From: Pholiota molesta
Taxonomy: Eukaryota; Basidiomycota; Agaricomycetes; Agaricales; Strophariaceae
NCBI GenBank assembly: GCA_014925825.1
Contig: JACGCK010000006.1
Coordinates: 62,001 to 126,000 of the forward strand
Length of the DNA stretch: 64,000 bases
Direction of reading: 5' to 3'
Within the stretch, counting starts at the first letter, position 1. Each line of letters begins with the position of its first letter. The position numbers and the translations under genes were made by a program. This document shows positions 35,501-64,000 of the stretch, piece after piece. Under the pieces are notes generated by a model, which was not told the DNA's origin, searched no databases, and saw nothing but the letters and a program-made list of their open reading frames with translations.

Positions 35501-37882
35501 GTTGCTCTCCTTTCTCCTATCTTGCTTTTTTTGGTGTGTCCTGAGATTGTATTATTACAGAGCGATTGGAATCCGCAAAATGACTTGCAGGCCATGGCGC
35601 GCGCCCATCGAATTGGACAAAAGTCTCATGTAAACGTGTACCGTTTTGTGAGCAAGGATACGATGGAGGAGGACGTGCTGGAGCGCGCGAAGAAGAAGAT
35701 GGTCCTCGAGTATGCGAGTATGTTGACCTTTTCATCTTTCACATGTGTGTCGCTGGTGGCTTACGGCAATGTGCGTCGGTTTAGTCATCAACCAGATGGA
35801 TACATCGCAAGCACATTTGAGCTCCAAAGCAACTGGAAGAGAATCAACCAAGCCTGATAACTTGAGCAGAGATGAATTGACGGCAGTCTTGAAATATGGT
35901 GCCCAGAAGATGTCAGCATACATTTTGTTATATGCATTGTTCTGCCACTTATTTCCTATCACATAGGTTCGACAAGGATGATACCCAGCAAAGCAAAAAG
36001 CTTGATGAGATGGATCTCGACGATATCCTGAACCGTGCTGAAGACCATGAGACAGCACAGACTGGCGAAGGCGTTGGAGCGTCGCTTGGTGGCGAGAACT
36101 TCTTGGCACAATTTGCGGCCGTTAGCGATGTCAAGAACGACATGAACTGGGAGGATATCATCCCGCTCGATCAACGTCAGAAGTTTGAGGCGGAAGAGGA
36201 TGAGCGCCGTGCCGAGGACTCCATCACTAACGAGACTAGGAAGCGAACGCACGCCCAGGTCTCTTACGAGGGCATGGATGTTGATCAGCCTGCCTCGACC
36301 TCCGCACCCAAAAAGCCCAAGGCACCTGGTCCGCAGAGGAAGACTGCCAGCCAGAAGGCCATGGAGCTCAAGGAGCGTGATGTCCGTGTGTTGATCAGGA
36401 GCTTGCAGCGGTGGGGTGATATTCGCCAACGATATGATGTTATCGTATGTTTCTTTTTTATGTATTCGCAACCCAGTGTAGATCTGATTCTGACTCGTGT
36501 TTCTAGGTCGCTGAAGCGAAGCTGCAAGACAAGAATAAGGGCATGATGTACGACGTTGCTGACGAGATCATCGAGATCTGTGCTCAGGCTGTCAAAGACA
36601 GCGAGGAGCAGAAGCGTCTGCGTGTTGCATCAGGTGAAACATTGACTAACGCACAGAAGAGTAAGGCAGTTCTTGTTACCTGCCGCGGGGTAGGTAACAT
36701 CAACGCCGAGACTGTGCTTTCACGGAATCGTGATCTCCGCATACTCTACAACATCCTTTCTGAGTTAGATGACCCGTACAAGTGGAGCATACCCATCGAC
36801 AACATTCGACCAACGCTCAACTGGTCAGGTCGATGGGGCCCACAAGACGACTCGATGCTCCTTGTGGGCGCATTTATCTACGGTTTCGGCAATTGGGAAG
36901 CGATGGCTAAAGATCCCAAGCTCGGCCTCGACGGCAAGTTTTTCCTCGAAGAAGGCAAGAAAGGCGAAGATGCCGCTACCCGGCCGATTCCTAACGCAAT
37001 TCACCTCGTGCGACGAGGTGACTTTTTGCTGAGCATACTGCGCGAGCATGACGAGAAGCTACGTTCGTATGAGAGTTCGTTGCGCCATAAGGGTCAGCTG
37101 AAGGTTTCGGCGTCTCCGCCCCCCACAGCAATGGCATCAACATCTTCGCATAGCAGCAGTCTAAAACGACGGGCCGAAAGCGAGGCGATGGCCTCAATTG
37201 ACGATGGCAGTTCCAAAAAACGCAAGCGCCGACCAACTCCTACGTTCACCGACTCCGAGTCTTCTGACGAATGGTATGTCAACCTTTGTTCATTTCCACC
37301 TTTCGCTCATCATCTTTTTGTACCTACAGTCCTTCCATGGACGAGGGGGCGACGAAAGAGGAGTTGCGTCCTGTCAAGAAACAACTGGTATGTCATGACT
37401 AATTAATCATATTTACCATTTTTAATTCATTTGTTTCACTGTAGAAACAACTCAAGCTGTCCGGTGAAGAAGACATGCCTCGAGCTGATAAAGTTGCCAT
37501 TCTTAAGGACTCGCTTGCTGCCATCGGTCGCCGCATAGAGCTCGTATTAAACGCTAAGGAGGCCCAAGGAGAAGACCGTGACAGATGGCGAAGACATCTT
37601 TGGACGTACGTCGCACTACTTATTTTTCTGAGTTTGAGCAAATCTTAGGCCCTTTTCTTTCTTTTTCGCAGATTCGTGACGCTCTTCTGGCCCAAGAAGG
37701 TGAAGGCCAGCAAATTAGAAGAGATTCACGCCAAAATGGTCATGAAAGAGGCTGCGCCGAAGCAACAATCCGATGGCGGTGCCATAAAAAAGCAGCGGAC
37801 GAGCACTGGTCCAAAAACTAATGGCTCGAGTTCGGCTCCTGCTTCAGCATCTATCAGGACGAACGGAAAGTCATACCGGTGA
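32551..37882 (+). CDS. CHD1: Chromodomain helicase DNA-binding remodeller Chd1
   Basis: Chd1 is an ATP-dependent nucleosome-spacing enzyme linked to transcription elongation. It starts [20 protein letters not shown]; a second ATG at 32605 is possible. An acidic, Ser-rich N-terminal tail leads to two chromodomains: [20 protein letters not shown] and [20 protein letters not shown]. The SNF2 motor follows, with motif [14 protein letters not shown] (split by an intron), motif II AVDEAHRLKN (also split), [47 protein letters not shown] and [19 protein letters not shown]. The C-terminal part has the SANT/SLIDE-like DNA-binding block ([39 protein letters not shown]), a basic linker, and the C-terminal DUF4208 domain ([38 protein letters not shown]). 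The stop TGA is at 37880-37882. About seventeen introns are present. Confidence 0.96.
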
Positions 37883-43949: not shown

Positions 43950-46909
43950 ATGTCGAAACGCGCTCTTTCGTCTAATTTCTCACCGGACAAGAACAAGCGT
44001 GCCAAAATTCAGCGCACTAACCAACCTAGAATTGATAGTTTCTTTGGGTCGCCTGCAAAAGCAAAAGCGTCGCCGACAGCCATTGCAGATGATGCGGTTC
44101 GACATTCATCCACCGATGCGAACAAAGCATCCAAATCGTCGAGTGCAATACTAGAGATAATTGATGTTGATGCTTTGGAATCAGAAGAAGAGAAACAGTT
44201 GCAACCCAACAAAGATATAAAGAAGGAAGCATCCACGCGCGTCCTAGGTGAAGCAAATGCTCGTCTCTCCGAGGCGGATTTTTTGCCCCTTGACATTGAT
44301 CCAACGCATTACGATCCGGCTTCGCAGCCGTCGAACTCCCCCCATGCACCTTACTCTCTGTTAACTCATGCACTTGTTGCTCTCTCTCAGACTCGGTCGC
44401 GGATTGCAATCATCAACATTTTGACCAATCTCATGCAGACCATCATCTCGAAACATCCGTCATCACTCTTGCCGGCCGTTTATCTCTTGTCTAATTCCCT
44501 GGGGCCACAATTCATTCCTATCGAGCTTGGTCTGGGTTCTTCTATCATTTCTCATTCCATTCAGCAAATTTCGGGACTCTCGTCGGCTACCCTAAAACGC
44601 ATGTATAATAACACTGGCGATCCTGGAGATGTAGCTTTCCAGGCCAAATCTAATATTAGAACCCTCGTCCCTCATGCGCCATTGACAGTGCCTTACGTTT
44701 ACCAGTCGTTGCTCAGAATTTCTCGATGCAAGGGTTCAGGGGCTGGAAAAGAAAAGCAAAAGGTAGTAGAAAAGCTATTACTGGCGGCCACTGGGGAAGA
44801 AGTGCGATACCTCACCCGAACTCTCTACCAAAATCTGCGCGTCGGAGCCGTTAGAACGTCAATTCTCACCGCATTAGCTAGAGCTTTTGCACTAACGCCT
44901 TCGCCAACGCGTGTTAAGGACCCGTCAACCCCTAATGATATGACTGCATCGAATCCTGAAAACCCTGCCGCTGATTCATCTTCGAGACGGACCCCAGGTT
45001 CCCCTTCAAAGCGCAAACAGCCCGTTAATGGACGAGAAAGGTTGTTTAAAGAAGCCGAGAGCTTGATAAAGTCGGTGTATGTCAAGCATCCCAGTTATGA
45101 TCAAATCATTCCTGCTCTACTTGAATGTGGTCTTAAGTCACTTGCTGAACACGTCCCACTCGTTGTAGGTAAGAATAATACTCATACTCGCTGAAATCAC
45201 AGAGGCTGTCAATTCACCATCATGATCTCTAGGCGTACCATTACTTCCAATGCTTGGGTCTCCGACTCGATCTCTGGATGAAATATACAACCGAATTGAA
45301 GATCTTCCTTTCTCTGCGGAATTCAAGTATGATGGACAACGCGCGCAAATACACGCTTCACGAACCTCAGATGGGAGCCCAGTTGTAAAAATATTTTCGC
45401 GTCATTTGGAAGATATGACATCCAAGGTGGGCATTTTAAAAATGTCGGTGTTCTTCATTTTTTGAAATATCATTCAGTATCCAGATGTAATTGGATTGGT
45501 GAACTCCATGCTTAGTGCATCCGAAGACCTTATTTCTTTTATCATGGACGCCGAAATAGTTGCTACTGACCCTAACAATGGGGCTATCAAGCCTTTCCAG
45601 GACTTGGCGGGTCGAGCGCGTAAAGACGTGAATCTCAAGGACGTGAAAGTCGCCGTATGTGTTTATGCATTTGATTTAATGTATTTCAATGAAAAGGTAA
45701 GATATTGTCCTTGGTTGGCCACTCAGTCCTCATATCCGGCTCAGTCTTTATTAGAACTCACTTTTCGTGAGAGAAGAGACTTGCTCCGAAATAGTTTTGT
45801 CTCGCGAAAGGCTCCGCAAGAAGATTTATCATTAGCTTTTTTCGACTTTGTCGAGAGTCGTGAAAGTCTGGAGGGTCGAACGTCTATAGAAGAATTCTTG
45901 CTAAAGGCTGTAGGCAATCGTTGCGAAGGGTTGATGATTAAAGTGTGTCGAAGTGTCACCGCGAAGTTATCTCTATAACTTATTTTTTCCAGCTCCTCGA
46001 CAGCCCTCCAATTGCTTCAGAAGAACCCGAAGAAAGGAAAAAAAGAATGAAGGCTCTTCCTGCAACATATGAACCGGACGTCAGAACATCTGGTTGGCTG
46101 AAACTGAAAAAGGATTATATCGATAGTATGAGTGACTCTCTTGACGTCATTCCCATTGGAGCATGGCATGGAAACGGACGAAAGGCGCAGTGGTGGAGCC
46201 CCGTCCTGCTGGCGCTGTGGAATCCAGAAACGGGACGTCCGGTTGCATTGTGCAAATGCATGTCTGGTTAGTCCAAGCATTTCATCACATTCAAGTTCAA
46301 AGCTAACATATTCTATAGGGTTTTCAGATGCTTTTTATATAGTCAGCAAACTTTATACTATTATGGTTTTACATTTCTGACGATAGAGATATCACTATTT
46401 AGCAAATGCGAGACAAATACTCACCAGATTCTGAATTTTGCTCGAAGCAGCCAATCTGGGAGTGTGATTTCGGAGGTAAGCCCGTGCATAACATATATAT
46501 TTCTTGATTCTAACTCTATTCCCGCAAAGGTTTCAGTCCAGATATTTACTTCAAACCAAACGAAGTATGGGAGATTCGAGGGGCAGAGTATGTCCTTTTT
46601 ATGTGTGTGTGGAAGTTGCTTAATTTCTGATTACAATGGTGTGATAGCATAACCGAAAGTCCAATCTCAGTGGCTGCACATGGCATTGTGTCGTCTTCTC
46701 GGGGACTCAGTCTTCGGTTTCCTCGATTTATTAAGCCAAGGGATGATAAATCTATTGAACTCGCCAGCTCTCCGTCATTTCTTGTAGAAATCTGGAAAAG
46801 TCAGCAAGGGAAAGAGAAGAATACTTCTGGAAAAGATGAAGGAGAATTGGTAGATGCCGAGCCTGAAGATTCCGAATTCGAGTCCTCAAATGAAAGCGAC
46901 ATGGATTAA
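43950..46909 (+). CDS. LIG1: DNA ligase I (ATP-dependent, Cdc9/Lig1)
   Basis: This is the replicative DNA ligase that seals Okazaki fragments and repair nicks in the nucleus. It starts MSKRALSSNFSPDKNKRAKI, basic and nuclear-type. A PIP box QPRIDSFF at residues 25-32 fits PCNA binding. The DNA-binding domain follows (KHPSSLLPAVYLLSNSLGPQ, YLTRTLYQNLRVGAVRTSIL). The adenylation Lys lies in the AEFKYDGQRAQIH motif at about residue 437. Other nucleotidyltransferase motifs are FIMDAEIVA, VYAFDLMYFN, EGLMIK and WLKLKKDYIDS. The OB-fold part reads SLDVIPIGAWHGNGRKAQWW, then VWEIRGADITESP and RGLSLRFPRFIKPRDDKSIE. The acidic tail ends ESSNESDMD at 46909. The first exon is long (to about 45168); about nine introns follow. 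Confidence 0.96.
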
Positions 46910-51700: not shown

Positions 51701-53642
51701 TTAGGTTTTGACGAACAAATCGGTAAACTTGTCGACAGCAAGCTTAGAGAAGGAATCGGCATCGGAGACCGTGTCCAAAATCCTTGGGATAATATGTCAG
51801 TGAGTTGCTGCGAGTCTTTAGAATAGCCACGTACTTTGCCTGATGGGCCTCTTCGAAGTGGTAAGAGATATGCCTACAAAACATATATATAATTTAGCAG
51901 TGTTCCAATTAGCGAAATCGCGAGAAATATACCTTTTGAATTTGTTGATTAAAAGTGGCGTTCCTTCGGTCCTACGCCTTTTGTGGCCAACAGGGTACTC
52001 AATTTCGACCTCATCAAGGACAGTTCCGTCGTTAAGTTCAACTAAAAGAGCATTGCCGATGGAGCGTTTGGCGGGATCGTGATATTCAACACTGAAGCGC
52101 TTCTCTTCCACACAGTAAATCTTAGCACGAAGCTCGTCAATGCGGGGATCAGCGGCAGAGGCATCAGTGCTGAGAATGTTGTTAATGCCTCATCTCCAGT
52201 CAAGACGAGGTCACTTACTAGCTTTCCGAGGTCAGTTCACCAAAGATCAAAGGGTAGGCAACCATGTAATTAATAGCATGATCACGATCAGCAAAGTTGT
52301 CTAGAGGGCCTTGCTTGTCGATGATACGGATAGCGGCATCTTGAGTACGAATTCGGACGCTCTTGATGTCATCGGATGACTTTCCGAGTTCCTTGAGCTT
52401 GTTGTGGAGGATGTGAGCGGCCTCGACGGCAGTCTGGGCATGGAATTCAGCAGGGAAGGAGATCTTGAAGAGCACATTCTCCATGATATAAGAACCGTAA
52501 GGAATCTGGAACTCAAAGGGTTTGCCCTATCAAATTGGTGAGTATTTAGATCTTTTTCAAAATAAAGGTATTCGAATACCTTGAATAAGACATCATAGAA
52601 GCCCCATGTCTTGGCAGTAAGGACAGAAGGAAGACCCTTCTCACCCTTCTTGACCATCAAGGCAAGGTTCACAGCACGAGAACAGGCATCACCTGCAGCC
52701 CAGGCCTTCCGAGGACCAGTGTTAGGGGCATGGCGGTAAGTGCGCAGGGATTGACCGTCCACCCAAGCTTGGGAAACAGCGTCAACAGTTTGATCACGGC
52801 TCAAGCCAAGAAGCTTGGAAACAACAGCTGTAGATGCGACCTTGACGAGGACGACATGATCAAGGCCGACCCTGTTGAAAGAATTAAGGAGGGCAATTCC
52901 TCCTTGAATTTCATGGGCCTTAATCATGGCCTCGAGAATATCTCGGACAGTAAGGGGCTGTCCTTGACGAGCAAGATGGTCCGCGACAGCCAGGATAGCT
53001 CCAAGATTGTCAGATGGGTGACCCCCTGAGATTGGAGGTAAGCGGCATTTATTGGTATGCGATGGAGCTGTTTCCACGTACATTCGGCAGCTAAGAAGCA
53101 GTCATTGAAATCGAGCCATCGAATGGCTGCTCCGATGTTGAATGCACCACGGACGGGATCAAGTTGGTAGTTGGTACCAGGAACGCGGGTGCCTTTGAGA
53201 CGATAGCTGGTCAGGAGCGACTTGATTTTGGATGAGCATAAAGCGTACCGTTCGGCACAACAGTTCCCTCCACTACTGGACCAAGCTGACTCGTGCAGTC
53301 AGGAAACCTCAACGCCTCAAGCCCACATCCTATCGTGTCGATGAGGCAGAGTCGCGCGGTCTCGAATGCCAGCTCTGAATCGATCGTGTAGTTGTGGACA
53401 TAGTCCGCAATGTCCTGGAGGACCTTGTCTGGTTCAGGGCGTAGCGTAGATTCGCCCCCGTGGCTGGAAGACATCGTACGAGCTGAAATAGATGATAGTC
53501 CGCAGAAAGAAGGTTTAGGTGACCGGGTAGCCGGTACGGTGGACCTTAGGGGCTGGGAAGCGTTGGATAGAGAGCGCAGAGCAGGGCGCAGAAGACGGTG
53601 GCGTGCAGTTGGGAGACGTACGCGGGTTGCGGTGGACAACAT
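51701..53642 (-). CDS. 2-methylcitrate dehydratase (PrpD/MmgE family), mitochondrial
   Basis: This enzyme dehydrates 2-methylcitrate in the methylcitrate cycle that detoxifies propionyl-CoA. The N terminus ([20 protein letters not shown]) is a clear mitochondrial presequence. The PrpD fold follows: [99 protein letters not shown] and [20 protein letters not shown]. The C-terminal part reads [20 protein letters not shown] and [20 protein letters not shown], ending KFTDLFVKT with TAA at 51701-51703. About six introns are present. The start codon is only 156 bp from that of the first Zn2Cys6 regulator, which runs the other way. Confidence 0.94.
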
Positions 53643-53798: not shown

Positions 53799-56700
53799 AT
53801 GTCGGAACCAGAACATAATCAGGGCCCTTCCTCTCACCCCGATCTCAAGCCAAAGAAACGGCGTCTACATGGCGCATGTGATGCCTGTCGCAGGAAAAAA
53901 GGTATCTTTCAATGTGTACATCGCTGCCGGGCGCTCATTCTCTGCATCTGTAGTCAAATGTACGTATGACGTGCCTACTATCACGTTGAGTATAACCCTC
54001 GACCACGGATGCTGATATCCATGTGAAGGCGATAGTGCAAAAATGCCCGACAAGGTGTGCACCAATTGTCGAATAGCCAGTATCCAATGCGGGCACACTA
54101 TTGCTCGACACGCAAAGGTATCGATGCAAATCGTGCTATTTTTGAGAGCTATGTCTAACGTGTACTAGAAAAAAGATCCGCAAAATAGGTTACAAATGAC
54201 ATTCATATATGTTCTGTATCAACTGCTGATATTTGTTCGCCCGCAGTTACATTCGAAGTCTCGAGGAAAGACTGGAAAGGATGGAACGCTCGTTCCAAGA
54301 CACTCAGGCACCTAGCTTTAATTCTGTTTGTCTTTTCAATTGCTCAATTTCGATTTTAGATGCGGCCGGAAAATGAAGCTCATCGCGAGACCAGCATCAC
54401 TAGCGACGAGACTTATCACTCTTCCCCTTCAGCAGAAGGCACCACCACAACGAAATATGCAGAGGCTGCAGCTAACCACCCTGCTCTCAAGTCCATCCAG
54501 GCGACCTTCGAGCCCGGCTCTCCGACACTTTCCCAATCAGATGGCTCCTCCGAAGTAGAGGATCTTGCCCATGTTACTCTCACAGAACAAATGAAACACT
54601 TATCTATTGCCAATCTGGAGCAACGGTTCTTTGGCCAGTCTAGGTGAGGCACTAGTAAACTGTGTTTGAAATCAACTTACACGCAGTAGTGCATTCATGT
54701 TCCTTTCCCAGACCGCCACTGTCAAGAGCGAGATAACCGGGGCACCCGATAAATTGGACCCCAAAAGGTCCAGGCGGCCTGTGTATTGGGAAATTCGTCC
54801 TGTATGTGACTCAGTCATGGACCAGTTTCATTTTCCGTAATTCATCTACCTTTATACAGTGGGAAATGAACCTTGCGCGCTCGAATGAGCCCATTTACAT
54901 TTACCCAGAAGACGAGCTCCTGGAAACATTGGTATCTATTTTTTTCGAGAGAGTTAACATCATATATCCAATTCTACATCAACCCACTTTCCGCAAATCA
55001 TTGTTGGCAAAACAGCATCTGTGGGATACCTCATATGGCATGACCGTTCTTCTTGTTTGTGCTATCGCTTCACGATATTCATCTGATGCACGGGTCGTGC
55101 TACCTGGTGACAGCTCAGGTCTGTCTTCGGGATGGCAGTGGTTTTCACAAGTTCCTATTCATCGGAATGCTTTGTTTTATAAATCTACGATCTACGATCT
55201 GCAATACTATGTTGTAAGCGAAGCCTTTACTGTCTCTTTCTCCCCCTTTCCTGACCTAGTTATAGCTTGCGACCATATATCTTATGTCGACATCCATACC
55301 TCATACAGGGTGGACTATTCTTGGTCTTGCAATGCGGCACGCACAGGAAAAAGGCATCCATCGCCGCCAAGGCAATAATCAGAAACCCACTGCTGAAGGA
55401 GAAATGCGAAAGAGAGCCTTTTGGTATGTCCTTCGGCCCTAAAAATGTGCAAATGTCCTGATGCTAAAAATTTAAAGGTGTATGGTTGCTTTGGATCGTG
55501 TCCTATCATCGTTCCTCGGGCGACCATGTTTAATCCAAGATGAAGAGTAAGTTCAAATTTTTGATTGGCCTACGTAAGGGAATAACATCTCATTATTCTG
55601 GATCATAGCTTTGATGTAAACTACCCAATCGAGTGCGATGACGAATATTGGGAGGCGGAAGATCCAAAACAAGCATTCAAGCAACCTCCTGGAAAGCCTT
55701 GCAAAATCATCTCTTTTGTTTGCCAATTGAAACTCTGCGAAATTATCGCTGTCACTCTGAGAACTTTGTACTCAACGAAAAAATCAAAAGTACATTCTGG
55801 ACTGGTGGGAGACGAATGGGAACGTTTTGTCGTCCTTCAATTGGACTCTTCCATGAATAAATGGAAAGACACCCTACCACAATATTGTAAATCTCCGTTA
55901 CCAAGTTGCCTCTTTTCTCTACTAACTCATCTTGCTAGTGGACTGGGGCTCAGGGGATCCCAACTTCCTTAGCCAATCAGTCAATCTGCATGCCCTGTAT
56001 TATTATACACAGATTCTGATCCACCGCCCATTCTTGACGAAGAAATCGGTACTATCTTTTCCGTCTCTGGCGATGTGTACAAATGCCGCTCGATCATGCA
56101 GTAAACTTCTGGAAGTAACACCAGTCAATGTTGCCTCACCATATCACTTAATAGTTGCGCAGTTTTGCCTTTTTTTGGGTATTAATGTTCAACATGCATC
56201 ATAGATATCTGCTTTCTGCTCAGGATTGGTACTCGCGCTTAATTTATGGGGCCATCAACGGTCTGGCTTATTCACTAGGCCCGCTAACGAGCTAGAGAGT
56301 CTCCAACAATGCCTTAACTTCCTTAAAGAACGGGAAAAAAGGTAGGTGCCTTTTACATAGATATCTCTGACTGACTTATTCAATACAACATCAGGGACCA
56401 CCTTTCGGGTAGATTTCGGTAGGGTTTTCCATTGTAAACAGCACTATCATCAACTGATAAACAAAATTACTACTATAGTGACATGTTAGAAGCGATCAGC
56501 TCTTTCGACGATTTGCCACCCGTTGTCTCATCGACGCCGGACCCAGCTTACGAACACAAGTTAAATGTTCAGTCCTTGCCGCGCGACACAACATCCACGA
56601 TCCACATCACCACCCCTTCTCCCTTTTCAGCACATGTTCAGCCGAACACAGACTTTACAAATCCCAATCCTCAGCTTAACTTTGGCGTTTCTCCATCCTT

Positions 56701-57063
56701 TGTTCCTCAGAACAATTGGGACCTTAACAACATGCTTCTTTTGCAAATGGGCTATGCGCGGACAAATCTTGGTGACCACATGGACATGTACTCGAACGAC
56801 AATCTGTACTCAGCAGGGATCATCGCGCCAGAAGCCAACATGATTGAAGGAATCAAAACGCTAAGCACATCTACTCCAGGACCTAATATGGCAACCGACG
56901 AAGTGCTGTCATTATGGTCCGATTTTCCCGCTACTTTTAGGTATTCGATTATCACTGTGATAGATGTTCTTCAGATGCTGATTTACCATTGTTTTTGAAA
57001 CCCAGTGTCGATGAATGGAATGCTTATCTTTCCAACATGGAATCGACAAGGACGACTTACTAG
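53799..57063 (+). CDS. Zn2Cys6 transcription factor with fungal-specific TF domain, array copy 1
   Basis: This is a nuclear DNA-binding regulator. It starts MSEPEHNQGPSSHPDLKPKK. The Zn2Cys6 cluster is RRLHGACDACRRKK, then VKCDSAKMPDKVCTNCRIAS and IQCGH, spread over three exons including a 6-nt microexon. YIRSLEERLERMERSFQD is a short coiled-coil dimerisation helix. The fungal-specific TF domain includes YIYPEDELLETLVSIFFERV, PILHQPTFRKSLLAKQHLWD, YGMTVLLVCAIASRYSSDAR, LSSGWQWFSQVPIHRNALFY, ALDRVLSSFLGRPCLIQDED and LIHRPFLTKKSVLSFPSLAM. The tail (MLEAISSFDDLPPV onward) is Pro/Asn-rich and ends VDEWNAYLSNMESTRTTY with TAG at 57061-57063. About a dozen introns are present, and I see no disabling lesion. 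It resembles XlnR-class activators in layout; the target is unknown. Confidence 0.88.
53954..53959 (+). other. 6-nt microexon TCAAAT in array copy 1
   Basis: The exon before ends AAAAAAG at 53901; intron 53902-53953 ends TGTAG; the microexon is TCAAAT; intron 53960-54028 begins GTACGT and ends GTGAAG. Joined, the frame reads Val-Lys-Cys-Asp and restores the third Cys of the zinc cluster. Without the microexon, the Lys and the third Cys are lost. Confidence 0.85.
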
Positions 57064-57744
57064 AATTTGTGTTTTCTCTTTGCTCTTTTCGAATTCTGCC
57101 CCGTATTCTGTATGGATGGAAGTACCTAGGTAACTTGAAATCAAGGCATGTAACAGTAGTATCTTATTATATAGTGTGATATCTCGGGTCTATATATTCT
57201 TATTTGCATGATAAAATTGGAGCTGTAGGGGCGGCTCCAAGACCCCTAGATCTAGTGTAAGTACTTGCTTGCAGTGTTGCACACGTCAGTTACACGTAAG
57301 TATGGGACTTACTGCGAAGCTCATGCAAAGCTCATGACGAAGCAATGCTATTGATAGTCAGAGTTGTGCAAGGTTGGGATTGAAAATCTTCCGTCGCCAT
57401 CGCCAAAGAAAGCATGCCCGGCCCCCCGGGTATCATGGCGATGGTAAGAGTGACAAGACAGCACTGCCACATTTTGACTGCCGAGGAGACTCCTACGCTG
57501 CAACCGGCGAAGAGTTCACGGCTCAAGTCTCGTTCCCCAATACCCATTCACCTGTACTTGGTTTCACACTGCGCAGGCTCATGATTGTATAGAAGAACAC
57601 CCTCCACTGGGAGTCCGGCACCGGCCGCCGATCTCAACTTGATACATAATATTTACGATGTTCACAGAGGGCTTTTCATACTTAACTTACACATTGAACA
57701 AGTCCGCTCGCTTAGTCAACTGACTAACTATACAGCTTTCCACA
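57064..57744. other. Intergenic between array copies 1 and 2
   Basis: This 681-bp stretch is presumably the copy 2 promoter and 5' UTR. A 4-codon upstream ATG frame lies at 57581-57592, and a longer one starts at about 57658. No separate gene or repeat is recognised. Confidence 0.55.
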
Positions 57745-60700
57745 ATGCCAGATTCATCCCCAGCAATGCAATCCGATAACGAAGCCAGCCCAGAATCCGG
57801 GCTGCATGAGGGCCAAAAGACTAAGAAACGAAGACTCCACGGAGCTTGTGATGTGTGTCGCAAAAAGAAAGGTATGTTGGTTGTATGGCGGCTATTTTGT
57901 TTGGATTTGGTGATGATACTAGGCTTATACGTTTGAAATCCAGTGAAATGTAAGAGTACATTGAAGGAATCATTTTACTGGGCATGAAATAATGGCGTAC
58001 CTCCCAGGCGACAGCGCTGAAATGCCTGGAAGACGATGTACAAACTGTCAGATATCTAATATTGACTGCACTCATGATGCTCCTCGACAACTAAAGGTGA
58101 ATGTCCTTAACCAAGTTATTTAATTCCCAGTACTCACTTTATGACCGAGTAGAAGTCAGAAGCACGCGCAGCGTATGCAACACTATTTTACTGTTTTAAA
58201 GCATCAGATGAACAAAATATCCTAAAGATACATCCAAAGCCTGGAGGAGCAAGTTCAAAGGGGAGAGAAGATGTATCGCTTGTTACAGAAGGTAAGTCAT
58301 CCCTTTATTCTCATTTATAGTTGTACCGCTGAATTCCGAGTGTTAGGTTTACCCAGGTCAAGATATTAATCTGCTCTTAGATGCTATTCCAGACGAACCA
58401 CATGATGATGATCTCTCCGACGGGGCCTCGTCGAACCCTGACACGACCCTTTATATGAAATACAGCTATCCTGTCCTTCCGTCGATTTCAAACGATCTGA
58501 AAGCTTCACGGCCTACGCAAGCCCTAGACGACCATTCGGAAGCAGATGATCTTGGTCATATCGCCCTGACTGAACACCTTAATCGACTTACTATACGGGG
58601 CGCAACCGATGACCGATATTTCGGACAAGCAAGGTAATAATTTTACGAACAGACAAATTGAACGTTCATCCTTTGACGTTTTAAAGCGTTTTTATGTTCA
58701 TAAAAGATGCGTCTGATCTCAAAAGTGAAATTACCGGATTTCCGCCAGACGGCAGGAAGTATATGAGACAAACCTATTGGACTCCCCGCCGCGTAAGTTT
58801 CGATGTTTCGGTGTTTCACTGAATAGATATTTTTCTCAAATGCATTTTCGTCATTCAGCACGAAGTCGAATTCATCACCTCACCACAAACGCCTTATATC
58901 TATCCAGAAGCAAATCTATTGCAAGACTTAGTTCATCTATATTTTGAAAAGGTCAACTCATTCATCCCTCTCCTCCATAAGCCGACTTTTTGGAAGAGTT
59001 TAATGGCGGGGCAACATCACTGGGATCAATCATTCGGAATGACCGTCCTTCTCGTCTGCGCACTTGGGGCTCGATACTCGCATGATCCGAGAGTGTTGGT
59101 ACCTGGCGCGGATAGCCTTTCCTCTGGGTGGCAATACTTCTGTCAGGTCCCCATTCATCGGCATAGTCAATTCTACCGCAATACCATTCACGATCTTCAA
59201 TATTACGTTGTATGTGCTATCCCACTTTCAATTGTTCTAGCTGACTTGCTCAAGCACTTCTAGCTAGCAACAACGTATATTCTCCGTATCGGTGTTCCTC
59301 ATGTGGCATGGAGTATCATGGGTATAGCGTTGCGATGTGCCATAGAGAAAGGGGCACATCGACGTAAACCCGACAGCTCATTTAAGCCCACTGCAGATGA
59401 AGAACTACTTAAACGGGCATTCTGGTTCGGGTGCTTTTCTCTCTGAGTTTCGCCTCCCTCATCTTTGGGTGCAGGTGTTTAGTTTTGATTGATCGTGTCA
59501 TGTGCATGTACCTTGGCCGACCACATGCGGCACAAGACGAAGAGTAAGGACCTCGAAACCTTCAATAACGTGGCACAAGTACTTATCGCACGTCACTATT
59601 CTAGTTTTGATGTGGATTATCCAATCGAATGCGACGACGAATACTGGGAAACTGACGATCCTAAACAGGCGTTCAGACAACCACCAGGAATACCATCCAC
59701 TGTTACTGGTTTCGTCTATATGCTTAAACTTTTTGAGATCCTAGGATTTGCCCTCAGAACTTTGTATTCCACGAGGAAGTCAAAAATTCTATCAGGTCTT
59801 AATGGCAATGAATGGGAGAGTCGCATCGTTGCGGAATTGGACTCGTCAATGAACAAATGGAAGGATTCCCTTCCACATTTCTGTGAGTTGTGAAATTGTT
59901 TTTTCATACCGCTGTCCGAGCTGACAACTATAATAAAATGTAGTGCGTTGGGATCCTGAGATGCGAAACCCCACCCTTTTCCATCAATCAGTGTACTTGC
60001 ATGTTGCCTATCATTACATCCAGATTCAGATTCATCGCCCATTTTTGACTAAAAAATCAGCACTGTCATTTCCCTCCCTTGCGATGTGTACAAATGCTGC
60101 TAGGTCATGCGCACATGTTCTAGAGGTGTCCTTAACTAGAGGGACCCCCGTCAATTTTATTACAATTGCAAGTAAACTATCTTACCAACGTCTATTGCGG
60201 CCTATTTCTGAGCACTATTCGTTTTCAGACAGGCTGCCTTATCACTGGCACTGCTATTTCACTGATTTTATGGGGCAATAAGCGTTCAGGGATGATCGGC
60301 GATCCAACAAAAGATGTCGCAAACTTTCAGATATGTCTCAATGTTGCGAAGGAAGGCGAGAAAAGGTAATCATTATTTTCGCTATTGTAGGTCATCTCTA
60401 ATCTTGAGTTGAATATATTAGATGGTATGTTGGGGGTCGCGTATAGTCAGTTCTTCACACAATACGTGAAATCCCGTCCCTGATCAAGCAAAAACAGTGA
60501 CATGCTAAACGAAGTTTCGTTCGTAAACGAATATAAGTCGACTGTTGGTAAGCGTCGACGTGATTCACCCGAGCGGACACACCAGTCAAGTGGATTTTCC
60601 GGTGTTCCAAGCTCTCATCCCGACAACATTTCCCTTCCGTTGTCATCTCCAAACTACCTCCCATGTATCGACGTTGCAGCCAATGATTCCAACAATATCT

Positions 60701-61073
60701 CATCCACTGTGCATGGGAAGGAGCCCTGGGATTTCACGAATCTTATGTTTGCACATATGGGTCATGTTCAACCCGGTCTCAATGCCGCAGTTGCACCCCA
60801 ATATACTACGACAAAATATGCAGCATCCACTACGTCTACGTCTCAAATGGGTGTCTTCCCGGTTGATTACTCTATACTCGACATGCAAGATATAGGTCAA
60901 GGCATTGGACGTGGCGCTGGTGAATCTTCGGACTTCTCATTATGGTCAGAAATACCCAGTGCATTTAGGTACGTAACATCTTTTTCTTTTTTTTGTGGGT
61001 ACAATTTGAGCCCTGTCATTACACCAGCGCCGATGAATGGGATAAATATTTGGCTAACCTGGGCAACACTTAG
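57745..61073 (+). CDS. Zn2Cys6 transcription factor, array copy 2
   Basis: This is a tandem paralogue of the preceding gene with the same architecture. It starts MPDSSPAMQSDNEASPESGL. The zinc cluster is KKRRLHGACDVCRKKK, then VKCDSAEMPGRRCTNCQISN and IDCTHDAPRQ, again split around a 6-nt microexon. The acidic linker has DDLGHIALTEHLNRLTI and DRYFGQAR, the counterpart of LTEQMKHLSIANLEQRFFGQ in copy 1. The TF domain shows YIYPEANLLQDLVHLYFEKV, PLLHKPTFWKSLMAGQHHWD, FGMTVLLVCALGARYSHDPR, LSSGWQYFCQVPIHRHSQFY, QIQIHRPFLTKKSALSFPSL and TGTAISLILWGNKRSGM. The last exon, SADEWDKYLANLGNT, ends at TAG 61071-61073, parallel to copy 1. All junctions checked keep frame, so it looks functional. Confidence 0.88.
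57944..57949 (+). other. 6-nt microexon TGAAAT in array copy 2
   Basis: The exon before ends at 57871; intron 57872-57943 ends ATCCAG; the microexon is TGAAAT; intron 57950-58007 begins GTAAGA and ends TCCCAG. Splicing yields Val-Lys-Cys-Asp at the zinc cluster, in the same phase and position as in copies 1 and 3. Confidence 0.85.
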
Positions 61074-61441
61074 GCCAATGTCAAAGGATAACGGTAACCC
61101 TACTACTTATAAGATTCGTGATTATTACTTTATTGTACTTTTATTCTTTAAGTAGCTACTACATGAATCAAATCCATAGTAAACACATAGATAAATAGAA
61201 TGGATAGTACGAATACTAGAGCTCAGAACACCTATGATTAAAATCTGAAGTGAGTAATGGCGGACACATCAGGAGCTCCGTAAAACCGAAAACTTGTGGT
61301 GTTTAGGGGCACCTTTACAGACCTTTACTTACTGTAACTTGAATTTAGATACTATCAGCTCTGCCGAGCGCTTGCGCATTACCCACGCTACTCTATATTA
61401 AGCACTGTCATCACCAAGTCATCACACAGATTCTCACTGTG

Positions 61442-61479
61442 TGCATCCGACCAGCATCCGACTGATCATCGACTGATCA
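61442..61479 (+). repeat. Clustered short direct repeats in the copy 3 promoter
   Basis: GCATCCGAC occurs at 61442-61450 and 61454-61462, and GACTGATCA at 61460-61468 and 61471-61479. The cluster lies about 390-430 bp upstream of the copy 3 start. It could be a regulator-binding region, but the repeats lack the CGG triplets typical of Zn2Cys6 sites. Confidence 0.45.
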
Positions 61480-61844
61480 CACTCGATTTTGGTGATTGAT
61501 GGCTGTTGCCTTTCTATGTATTCACCGCTTGCGCAATGATTGGCTCGTCAAGAACATCAGATGGAAGGATTAGAAATGAATGGAGTTGTCAGCTGTTGTG
61601 AGTTTTCGCTACTTTTTCACACTTTGTACACTTCCCAACTTGCCTCCTAGGGTTTTACACTGCCACCTTGCGCACTCTTGGGTTTCCCAGTGCACAGGGT
61701 AACTGCTGCCAAAGTGGCAACTAAACTTACAGCCACCCAACCTCAGCAAATCATCAGCTCCACACCGCTTTGCTTTATCATAATCACCTCCTCAATTTAC
61801 TGTCTTCTCTTATCGAATCCCACTTTCGACCTTCATTACTTGCC

Positions 61845-61865
61845 ATGAATCGAGCGAAGATCTAA
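61845..61865 (+). promoter_or_regulatory. Upstream open reading frame of array copy 3
   Basis: ATG at 61845 opens a 6-codon frame (MNRAKI) that stops at TAA 61863-61865, five bases before the copy 3 start codon. If transcribed, it could reduce initiation at the main ATG. The closeness to the main start would favour this, but no expression evidence exists here. Confidence 0.45.
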
Positions 61866-61870
61866 GTAGT

Positions 61871-64000
61871 ATGTCCAGTACTACGGAGTCATCATATCCT
61901 CAAGAACATCAAAAGGTCAAAAAACGACGACTACATGGGGCCTGCGATGGATGTCGCAAGAAGAAAAGTACGTTCACCACAAAGGAAAGCAAGACATGCA
62001 CGTACTCATGCTAGTTCATTTCGACTTTTCTCCTCAGTTAAATGTATGACTGCCGTCGTTCTGTTTTTCGGGCCGTCCTAAACCATCTGGTTTCTTCTAA
62101 GGTGATAGTGCAAATATGCCGGGGAACATATGCACAAACTGTCAACTCTCCAATGTCGAATGTACGCACGATATCCCTCGACAGCCCAAGGTATTTCAGC
62201 TTCACTGAAGGACACAAGTCTGTGGATACCACTGATTAACGGAACTAGAAATCCGAAACCCAGGCAATGTAGGCATCTCTGTGACACTTGGTTGATTTAT
62301 AGACAGGCTAACAGCTTCATAATATTCCAAGATATATTGAAGAATTAGAAAAGAAACTTCAGAAGATGCAACATTGCTTCAAAGCGTAACTATATCTAAT
62401 TTATACAATGTCCGTCGCTCAACTTACCTCAAGAATTCTAGACATACCCAGGTGAAGACATCGACCACTTGGTAGATATGGTGTCAGATTCGACCTCAGA
62501 AAACTCTACTCCTGACCCAACTTCCCTGGCTTCTGGATCCTCGGGCCATACGGATCTCAAGTACTCTGTTCTTCAATCCGTACCGAAGAACCTCAAGTCA
62601 ACGGCATCGAATTCCAATGAATTGACGGATGATAATGAATCGTCGGAAGGAGATGATCTTGAACATATTGCCCTTTCAAAACATCTCAGGGAACTTTCCC
62701 TTGATACTGTCGATGATAGATTTTTTGGCCCATCGAGGTAAGACACATCGAACTTTTACGCATAACCAGCTGTTCACCGCATATCGCAGTGGTTTCATGT
62801 TTTTCAAACAGACATCAACGGCAAAGGGCGAACTGACCGGAAAACCAAGCAAACCAGATCCGAACAATTTTAGGAGGCCTTTATACTGGAATGTCCGACC
62901 AGTGCGTTCGCAAAAATACTCTTCGAGCATAAGGATTCACTAAGATCATGATCATCGTTTCGTAACATATAACAGTGGGAACTTGCATTTGCGACTACTG
63001 AAGAACCGCATTATATTTACCCCGATCAAGATTTGCTTCAAACTCTAGTCTTCATCTATTTTGACAAATTCAATCCATTCTATCCGCTCCTCCACCAACC
63101 AACCTTTCTGAGAATGCTAAAGTCAGGCGAACATCACCGAAACCCTGCATTTGGCATGACGGTCCTTCTTGTCTGCGCTTGTGCATCTCGATACTCTGAT
63201 GACCCACGAGTAATGATGCCTGGCGATTTATCTGGGTTTTCTTCTGGCTGGAGATTCTTTTGTCAAGTCCCAATGCATAGGAATCAGTTGCTTTATAGGA
63301 CTACAGTTCACGATCTACAATATTATGCTGTGAGTGACCCAAACCCTTTCACGATCGTGAATTTATATTCACAAAAGTGGCCTAGCTTGCGTTAATATAT
63401 CTTCATGGTACATCCATTCCCAATACCGCCTACAACATCTTGGGTTTGGGGATGCGTCATGCACTCGAGAAAGGCATTCATCGTCGAAAACCAAATTTTC
63501 ATAAACCTACTGCTGAGAATGAATTGCTGAAACGAGCATTTTGGTTGAGTCCCATCATCATATGGGTTTTACGTCGTTAACAATATATTTTATTAGGTGT
63601 TTAGTTGCCGTCGACCGCTATATGAGCTCTTTTCTTGGCCGCCCCAGTATGATACATGACGAGGAGTGAGTCTGAAAACATATTTTGCAATATCGTTATT
63701 CACTTGCCCAAAGCTTTGACGTAGATTATCCTATTGAATGCGACGACGAATATTGGGACAATGATAACTCAGAACAAGCATTCAGACAACCTCCTGAAAA
63801 ACCTTCCACAATTACGGCATTCGTTTGGAGTTTGAAGCTTTGCCAAATGCTAGCATTCACCTGTCGAACTTTGTACTCTACCAAAAAGTCGAAGGTACTA
63901 TCTGGCTTGACTGGAAATGAATGGGAAGGTCGAATCGTCAATGAACTTGCCACCTCTATGAGTAAATGGAAAGAATCACTTCCTTATTTCTGTCAGTCAC
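61871..64000 (+). CDS. Zn2Cys6 transcription factor, array copy 3 (3' end outside window)
   Basis: This is the third paralogue of the array. It starts MSSTTESSYPQEHQKVKKRR. The zinc cluster is LHGACDGCRKKK, then IKCDSANMPGNICTNCQLSN and VECTHDIPRQPK, with the same microexon arrangement. The linker has DDLEHIALSKHLRELSLD and DRFFGPSR. The TF domain includes YIYPDQDLLQTLVFIYFDKF, PLLHQPTFLRMLKSGEHHRN, FGMTVLLVCACASRYSDDPR, FSSGWRFFCQVPMHRNQLLY, GLGMRHALEKGIHRRKPNFH and VDYPIECDDEYWDNDNSEQA. The window ends inside the domain after MSKWKESLPYF, so the C-terminal third is not seen. No lesion is visible in the part present. Confidence 0.87.
62038..62043 (+). other. 6-nt microexon TTAAAT in array copy 3
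   Basis: The exon before ends at 61967; intron 61968-62037 ends CCTCAG; the microexon is TTAAAT; intron 62044-62101 begins GTATGA and ends TCTAAG. Splicing yields Ile-Lys-Cys-Asp, conserving the third zinc ligand. The last four bases (AAAT) are identical in all three copies. Confidence 0.85.

Follow-up and report, generated by a model that had tools for sequence, protein, structure and literature searches.

A 6-nt exon completing the zinc cluster in a family of mushroom regulators: probably obligatory and often missed by annotation

Three Zn2Cys6 genes of Pholiota molesta, here called g1, g2 and g3, share an exon of only 6 nt. It is very probably a genuine microexon of old origin that is normally obligatory, and its inclusion in P. 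molesta would be constitutive. The genes lie in the window, the 64,000-nt stretch of one contig that was analysed. Among mushrooms the exon seems ancient and widely distributed, and annotation often seems to have missed it. It is more likely to be an obligatory piece than an on/off switch. The proposed arrangement is of two short phase-1 introns 6 nt apart within the zinc-cluster coding region of an Agaricomycete Zn2Cys6/Fungal_trans family. Each intron would be recognised as a short unit and removed separately (intron definition), the 6 nt would thereby be joined in and the third zinc ligand would be completed. The six-cysteine DNA-binding domain would need this inclusion, and DNA binding would be lost without the exon.

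Open spliced models were obtained for all three genes, Table 1. The g3 model ends at 65163 once it is continued into locus L027, with one GC-AG intron assumed. The array proteins are 45–50% identical to each other, g2 being 45% identical to g1 and 50% to g3. Domains were scanned in g1 alone, which scored 28.3 bits for PF00172 and 106.9 bits for PF04082, both above the curated cut-offs.

Table 1. Features of the three-gene array (positions in the window, or continued beyond it for g3).
Feature	Position	Strand	Basis
g1, Zn2Cys6/Fungal_trans gene, 16 exons, 812 aa	53799..57063	+	open spliced model
g1 intron 1	53902-53953	+	spliced model
g1 exon 2, 6-nt microexon, TCAAAT	53954..53959	+	spliced model
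g1 intron 2	53960-54028	+	spliced model
g1 exon 4, 20 nt, linker after Cys6	54169..54188	+	spliced model
g1 exon 14, 24 nt	56395..56418	+	spliced model
g2, Zn2Cys6/Fungal_trans-type gene, 16 exons, 819 aa	57745..61073	+	open spliced model
g2 intron 1	57872-57943	+	spliced model
g2 exon 2, 6-nt microexon, TGAAAT	57944..57949	+	spliced model
g2 intron 2	57950-58007	+	spliced model
g2 exon 4, 20 nt, linker after Cys6	58153-58172	+	spliced model
g2 exon 14, 24 nt	60422-60445	+	spliced model
g3, Zn2Cys6/Fungal_trans-type gene, 16 exons, 813 aa	61871..64000, past window end	+	open spliced model
g3 intron 1	61968-62037	+	spliced model
g3 exon 2, 6-nt microexon, TTAAAT	62038..62043	+	spliced model
g3 intron 2	62044-62101	+	spliced model
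g3 exon 4, 20 nt, linker after Cys6	62249-62268	+	spliced model
g3 exon 14, 24 nt	64511-64534 (beyond window)	+	spliced model

The initial annotation had placed a 6-nt exon in each gene, and its positions and letters agree with the spliced models to the base. The codon layout it described was also correct. The last base of exon 1 is the first base of a Val codon (g1, g2) or an Ile codon (g3), and the 6 nt supply the second and third bases of that codon, the Lys codon and the first base of the third cysteine, Cys3. Introns 1 and 2 measure 52 and 69 nt in g1, 72 and 58 nt in g2 and 70 and 58 nt in g3, and are GT-AG throughout. When the microexon is included, all three genes encode the cluster CX2CX6CX9CX2CX6C. 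Skipping was said to delete the Lys and change Cys3 in frame, which is right as a prediction: V/I-K-C would become a single Gly (g1, g2) or Ser (g3). The zinc-cluster domain of g1 scores 32.7 bits against PF00172 with the exon and 13.0 bits without it, the cut-off being 21 bits. When the proteins were aligned to LAC9, HAP1, PPR1 and GAL4 chains, Cys3 fell on a cysteine of LAC9 and HAP1, which we take from the GAL4 literature to be a zinc-binding position; the proteins match the four chains in sequence and would bind DNA as zinc clusters.

The whole 65.6-Mb genome (625 contigs) was scanned, together with a reversed control, for a 28-place pattern of the codons up to the intron 1 donor. Six matches were found and none in the control. 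They were g1, g2, g3, a gene on contig C588, a copy on C144 and a gene on C322, and a 6-nt exon follows in all six. This exon is TTCGAT in the C588 gene and TTCGTT in the C322 gene, and the C144 copy reads the same as C588 by eye. As the C588 and C144 loci (L024 and L025) are 97.8% identical over 4.2 kb and are on different contigs, the pair may be alleles (haplotypes) or a recent duplicate. All five non-allelic genes with an intron at this site have the 6-nt exon, flanked in each by GT-AG introns, so that the splice sites at either end of this tiny exon are canonical; with the 6 nt included, all five fit CX2CX6CX5-12CX2CX6-8C. The C588 model has no stop before the end of the sequence used, and the C322 model comprises the first eight exons only. 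The C588 protein is 37–41% identical to the array proteins, C322 being left out of this comparison. Conservation in all three array genes had been claimed and holds for the array, but the exon is not specific to it, being family-wide (C588, C144, C322 and relatives in other species). It is not universal in the wider family, since in a relative some 200 kb off along the same contig (L026, C555:320312-320416, minus strand) Cys3 lies in an exon that no intron interrupts. This suggests that the two introns were lost there, or that the relative belongs to a lineage lacking them.

Three protein searches gave 1310, 409 and 1856 matches, and the best 120 of each were taken, giving 230 distinct relatives, namely 211 database proteins and 19 transcript-like records. 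This is a non-random sample from searches not directed at other classes, and its named organisms are presumably Agaricomycetes. The survey of homologues proposed in the initial annotation found the standard CX2CX6CX9CX2CX6C cluster in 96 of the 211 listed database proteins (102 with looser spacing), while 67 are without exactly the microexon residues, I/V-R/K-C being replaced by one residue. The other 48 are broken or truncated in different ways. Thus the expectation that most gene finders would miss the exon was borne out only in part: it is often missed (67 of 211), but not in most cases (96 of 211 standard). In the 67 exon-less proteins KK is joined to Ser-Asp (53), Gly-Asp (11), Ser-Asn, Arg-Asp or Arg-Asn (one each), as predicted for exon 1 joined to exon 3. 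Exact deletion requires introns on both sides, so the same layout is likely in those species, exon boundaries there being deduced from protein annotations. Exon-less annotated proteins were found in Trametes, Ganoderma, Pleurotus, Lentinula, Serpula, Paxillus, Heliocybe, Artomyces and Coniferiporia, among others.

Two Psilocybe cubensis proteins, P0004 and P0032, are 98.9% identical over 653 aa, and the sole difference in their first 158 residues is IRC versus S at the microexon site. That near-identical proteins are annotated both ways points to annotation as the source of the exon-less form. The best matches of the array proteins among 13 proteins compared were P0137 for g1 (73% identity), P0121 for g2 (69%) and P0129 for g3 (76%), all from Pholiota conissans, and the array is probably conserved in that species. 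Its annotation gives P0137 in the skipped form and P0129 intact, and P0121 starts downstream.

The 19 transcript-like records came only from the sources lgn (16) and jgi (3), with ORFs of 597–1071 aa and longest contigs of 2.4–5.8 kb, and were taken as spliced transcripts because these genes have many introns. All were from relatives. Ten of them contain the full standard cluster, microexon included, and skipping of the microexon was seen in none of the 19. With 0 of 19 here and 67 of 211 among the remaining proteins, the skipped form is most simply explained as being, for the most part, an annotation error. The remaining nine records begin past the microexon, eight at a Met after Cys3 and one (P0130) a few residues upstream, in apparent intron-2 sequence. 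Either 5' truncation or a retained intron would account for them.

If introns 1 or 2 were partly retained, incomplete splicing could act as a control, giving less DNA-binding protein or a form started from the Met between Cys3 and Cys4. The eight records starting at that Met, and P0130 slightly upstream, are consistent with such control, and the Met occurs in 85 of the 106 standard clusters and in the five genes modelled here. In plants the introns flanking small microexons are reported to tend to splice late, and the report on Xlr2 describes intron-1 retention in T. reesei (PMC11121469). However, nothing more than 5' truncation may lie behind these records, the sample is biased in that retention in mid-gene would drop out of such a list, and it may be the zinc cluster itself that keeps the Met conserved. 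Retention would introduce a stop or frameshift in 9 of 10 cases, the exception being C322 intron 1, and this would also fit decay. Control by incomplete splicing is thus considered unlikely. We also think it improbable that there is a mushroom-wide splicing checkpoint, in which slow or regulated removal of the flanking introns would pick between the DNA-binding form and a Met-started form lacking half of the zinc cluster.

The initial annotation had suggested a possible splicing switch between DNA-binding and non-binding forms. Exon 1 would be joined to exon 3 under regulation, and the in-frame product, lacking Cys3 and unable to bind DNA, could be a competitor. The 6 nt do keep the frame, the exon-less form is present in the database as described above, and for Trichoderma Xlr2 a switch that depends on a microexon has been published (PMC11121469). 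Nevertheless the suggestion found no support and is very unlikely to be correct. Skipping is absent from the transcript-like records of relatives, the near-identical P. cubensis proteins are annotated both ways, and the Xlr2 authors saw no exon 1–exon 3 reads (PMC11121469). The splice signals do not favour it either, the donors of introns 1 and 2 (eight introns in four genes) having a mean of 8.0 bits against 5.4 bits for 50 other introns. Mean acceptor scores are equal at 4.7 bits. Individual sites vary: at 4.8 bits (29th percentile) the C588 intron-2 donor is weak to middling, and low acceptor scores are seen for intron 2 in g1 (10th percentile) and g3 (21st percentile). The intron sequence is unconserved between the copies, with identity between genes of 29–53% in introns 1 and 2 versus 53–70% in coding exons 1–3, and comparison between the genes by eye found no shared block in these introns beyond the splice signals. 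On sequence grounds, these signals and unconserved introns fit a mode of splicing in which each short intron is taken out as one unit, and there is no sign of a regulated element in introns 1 and 2.

That the microexon is a chance run of AG..GT letters within a single long intron, or that the genes are pseudogenes, with proteins lacking Cys3 in either case, can hardly be credited, since the exact 6-nt form is present at five of five modelled loci, the g1–g3 models are open over 812–819 aa and their best matches in P. conissans are 69–76% identical. The DNA between exons 1 and 3 was dinucleotide-shuffled 2000 times per locus. An AG|N6|GT exon giving an in-frame [VIL][KR]C arose in 1, 3 and 3 of 2000 shuffles for g1, g2 and g3 (0.05–0.15%) and in 0 and 9 for two further paralogues, the range over five loci being 0–0.45%. 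Chance does better with looser exons, any exon of 3–39 nt completing the C6 cluster in 56, 143, 91, 37 and 318 of 2000 shuffles at the five loci (1.9–15.9%). A pattern of exon 1 end, intron, microexon, intron and exon 3 matched g1 and g2 in the window and gave 0 matches in 100 shuffles; it demanded TGT and g3, which has TGC, could not be matched. A merged intron without the microexon would measure 127, 136 and 134 nt in g1–g3 and 112 nt in the fourth model, while the 50 introns after intron 2 in the four gene models are 43–87 nt with a median of 55 nt. In g2 and the C322 gene the cluster can also be completed by a 12-nt exon, but this adds two residues and was set aside because 106 of the 112 clusters fitting the loose motif among the listed relatives keep the standard X6-C-X9 spacing. 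When independent fungal DNA for the exon was sought, 24 and 169 pattern stretches were returned, from genomic and viral contigs, and tblastn found no relative.

The closest known case of a microexon within a zinc cluster is that of Trichoderma virens Xlr2 (PMC11121469), a Zn2Cys6/Fungal_trans regulator whose microexon, conserved in the genus, was likewise missed by annotation. It differs in being 20 nt long, coding for PCRRCE with two cysteines, whereas here 6 nt serve Cys3, and in belonging to an ascomycete; it is reported to be glucose-dependent (included without glucose). The 20-nt exon 4 of the present genes was considered as a counterpart of the Xlr2 exon and rejected on position, as it lies after Cys6. 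Among P450 genes, a shortest exon of 6 bp is reported in Phanerochaete (PMC1184071) and a 1-nt exon in Fusarium CYP621A (PMC12940212); these too are tiny exons between short fungal introns that trouble annotation, but in enzymes and in unrelated genes, not regulators. Plant microexons of up to 15 nt are described in PMC8831610 as conserved, often constitutive and widely misannotated, thus similar in conservation and common misannotation, but they were demonstrated by RNA-seq whereas the exon here comes from gene models and relatives' records. PMC10470540, PMC3990503 and PMC4014442 bear on microexons only by naming an aligner option in the passages found. Before 2015 a constitutive 6-nt exon was described as the smallest known, and codon-sized alternatively spliced microexons are mentioned for Tuber. 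Microexons are reportedly mentioned in a 2025 paper on long-read annotation of Coprinopsis cinerea, which may include the 6-nt exon. In a literature search of titles and abstracts, covering few subscription papers, neither this exon nor its conservation across the family nor its effect on mushroom gene models was found described.

Because of the 6-base exon, database entries for a mushroom regulator family often show a broken DNA-binding domain (67 of the 211 listed relatives). Basidiomycete Zn2Cys6 counts may consequently be too low, e.g. those behind the contrast with ascomycetes reported in PMC3998117. Proteins expressed from exon-less models would be without one zinc ligand. The genes also offer a natural, clean case in which to study the splicing of a 6-nt exon flanked by short introns.

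Some further features of the array and its surroundings were observed. Exon 4 is a second microexon, 20 nt long in g1–g3 and in the C588 and C322 paralogues; its skipping would cause a frameshift, and on visual inspection the annotation of many relatives likewise goes wrong right at its position. Intron 5 has apparent GC donors in g1 (54308-54359, GCACCT) and g3 (62384-62441, GCGTAA), the g2 donor being GTAAGT. GC donors were accepted in the models for these two introns and, putatively, for intron 12 of C588. An exon of MmgE/PrpD (2-methylcitrate dehydratase) type lies at 52301-53083 on the minus strand, divergent from g1, and the ORFs at 43950-45194 and 36543-37406 encode a DNA ligase N-terminal domain and a CHD1-type HTH domain.
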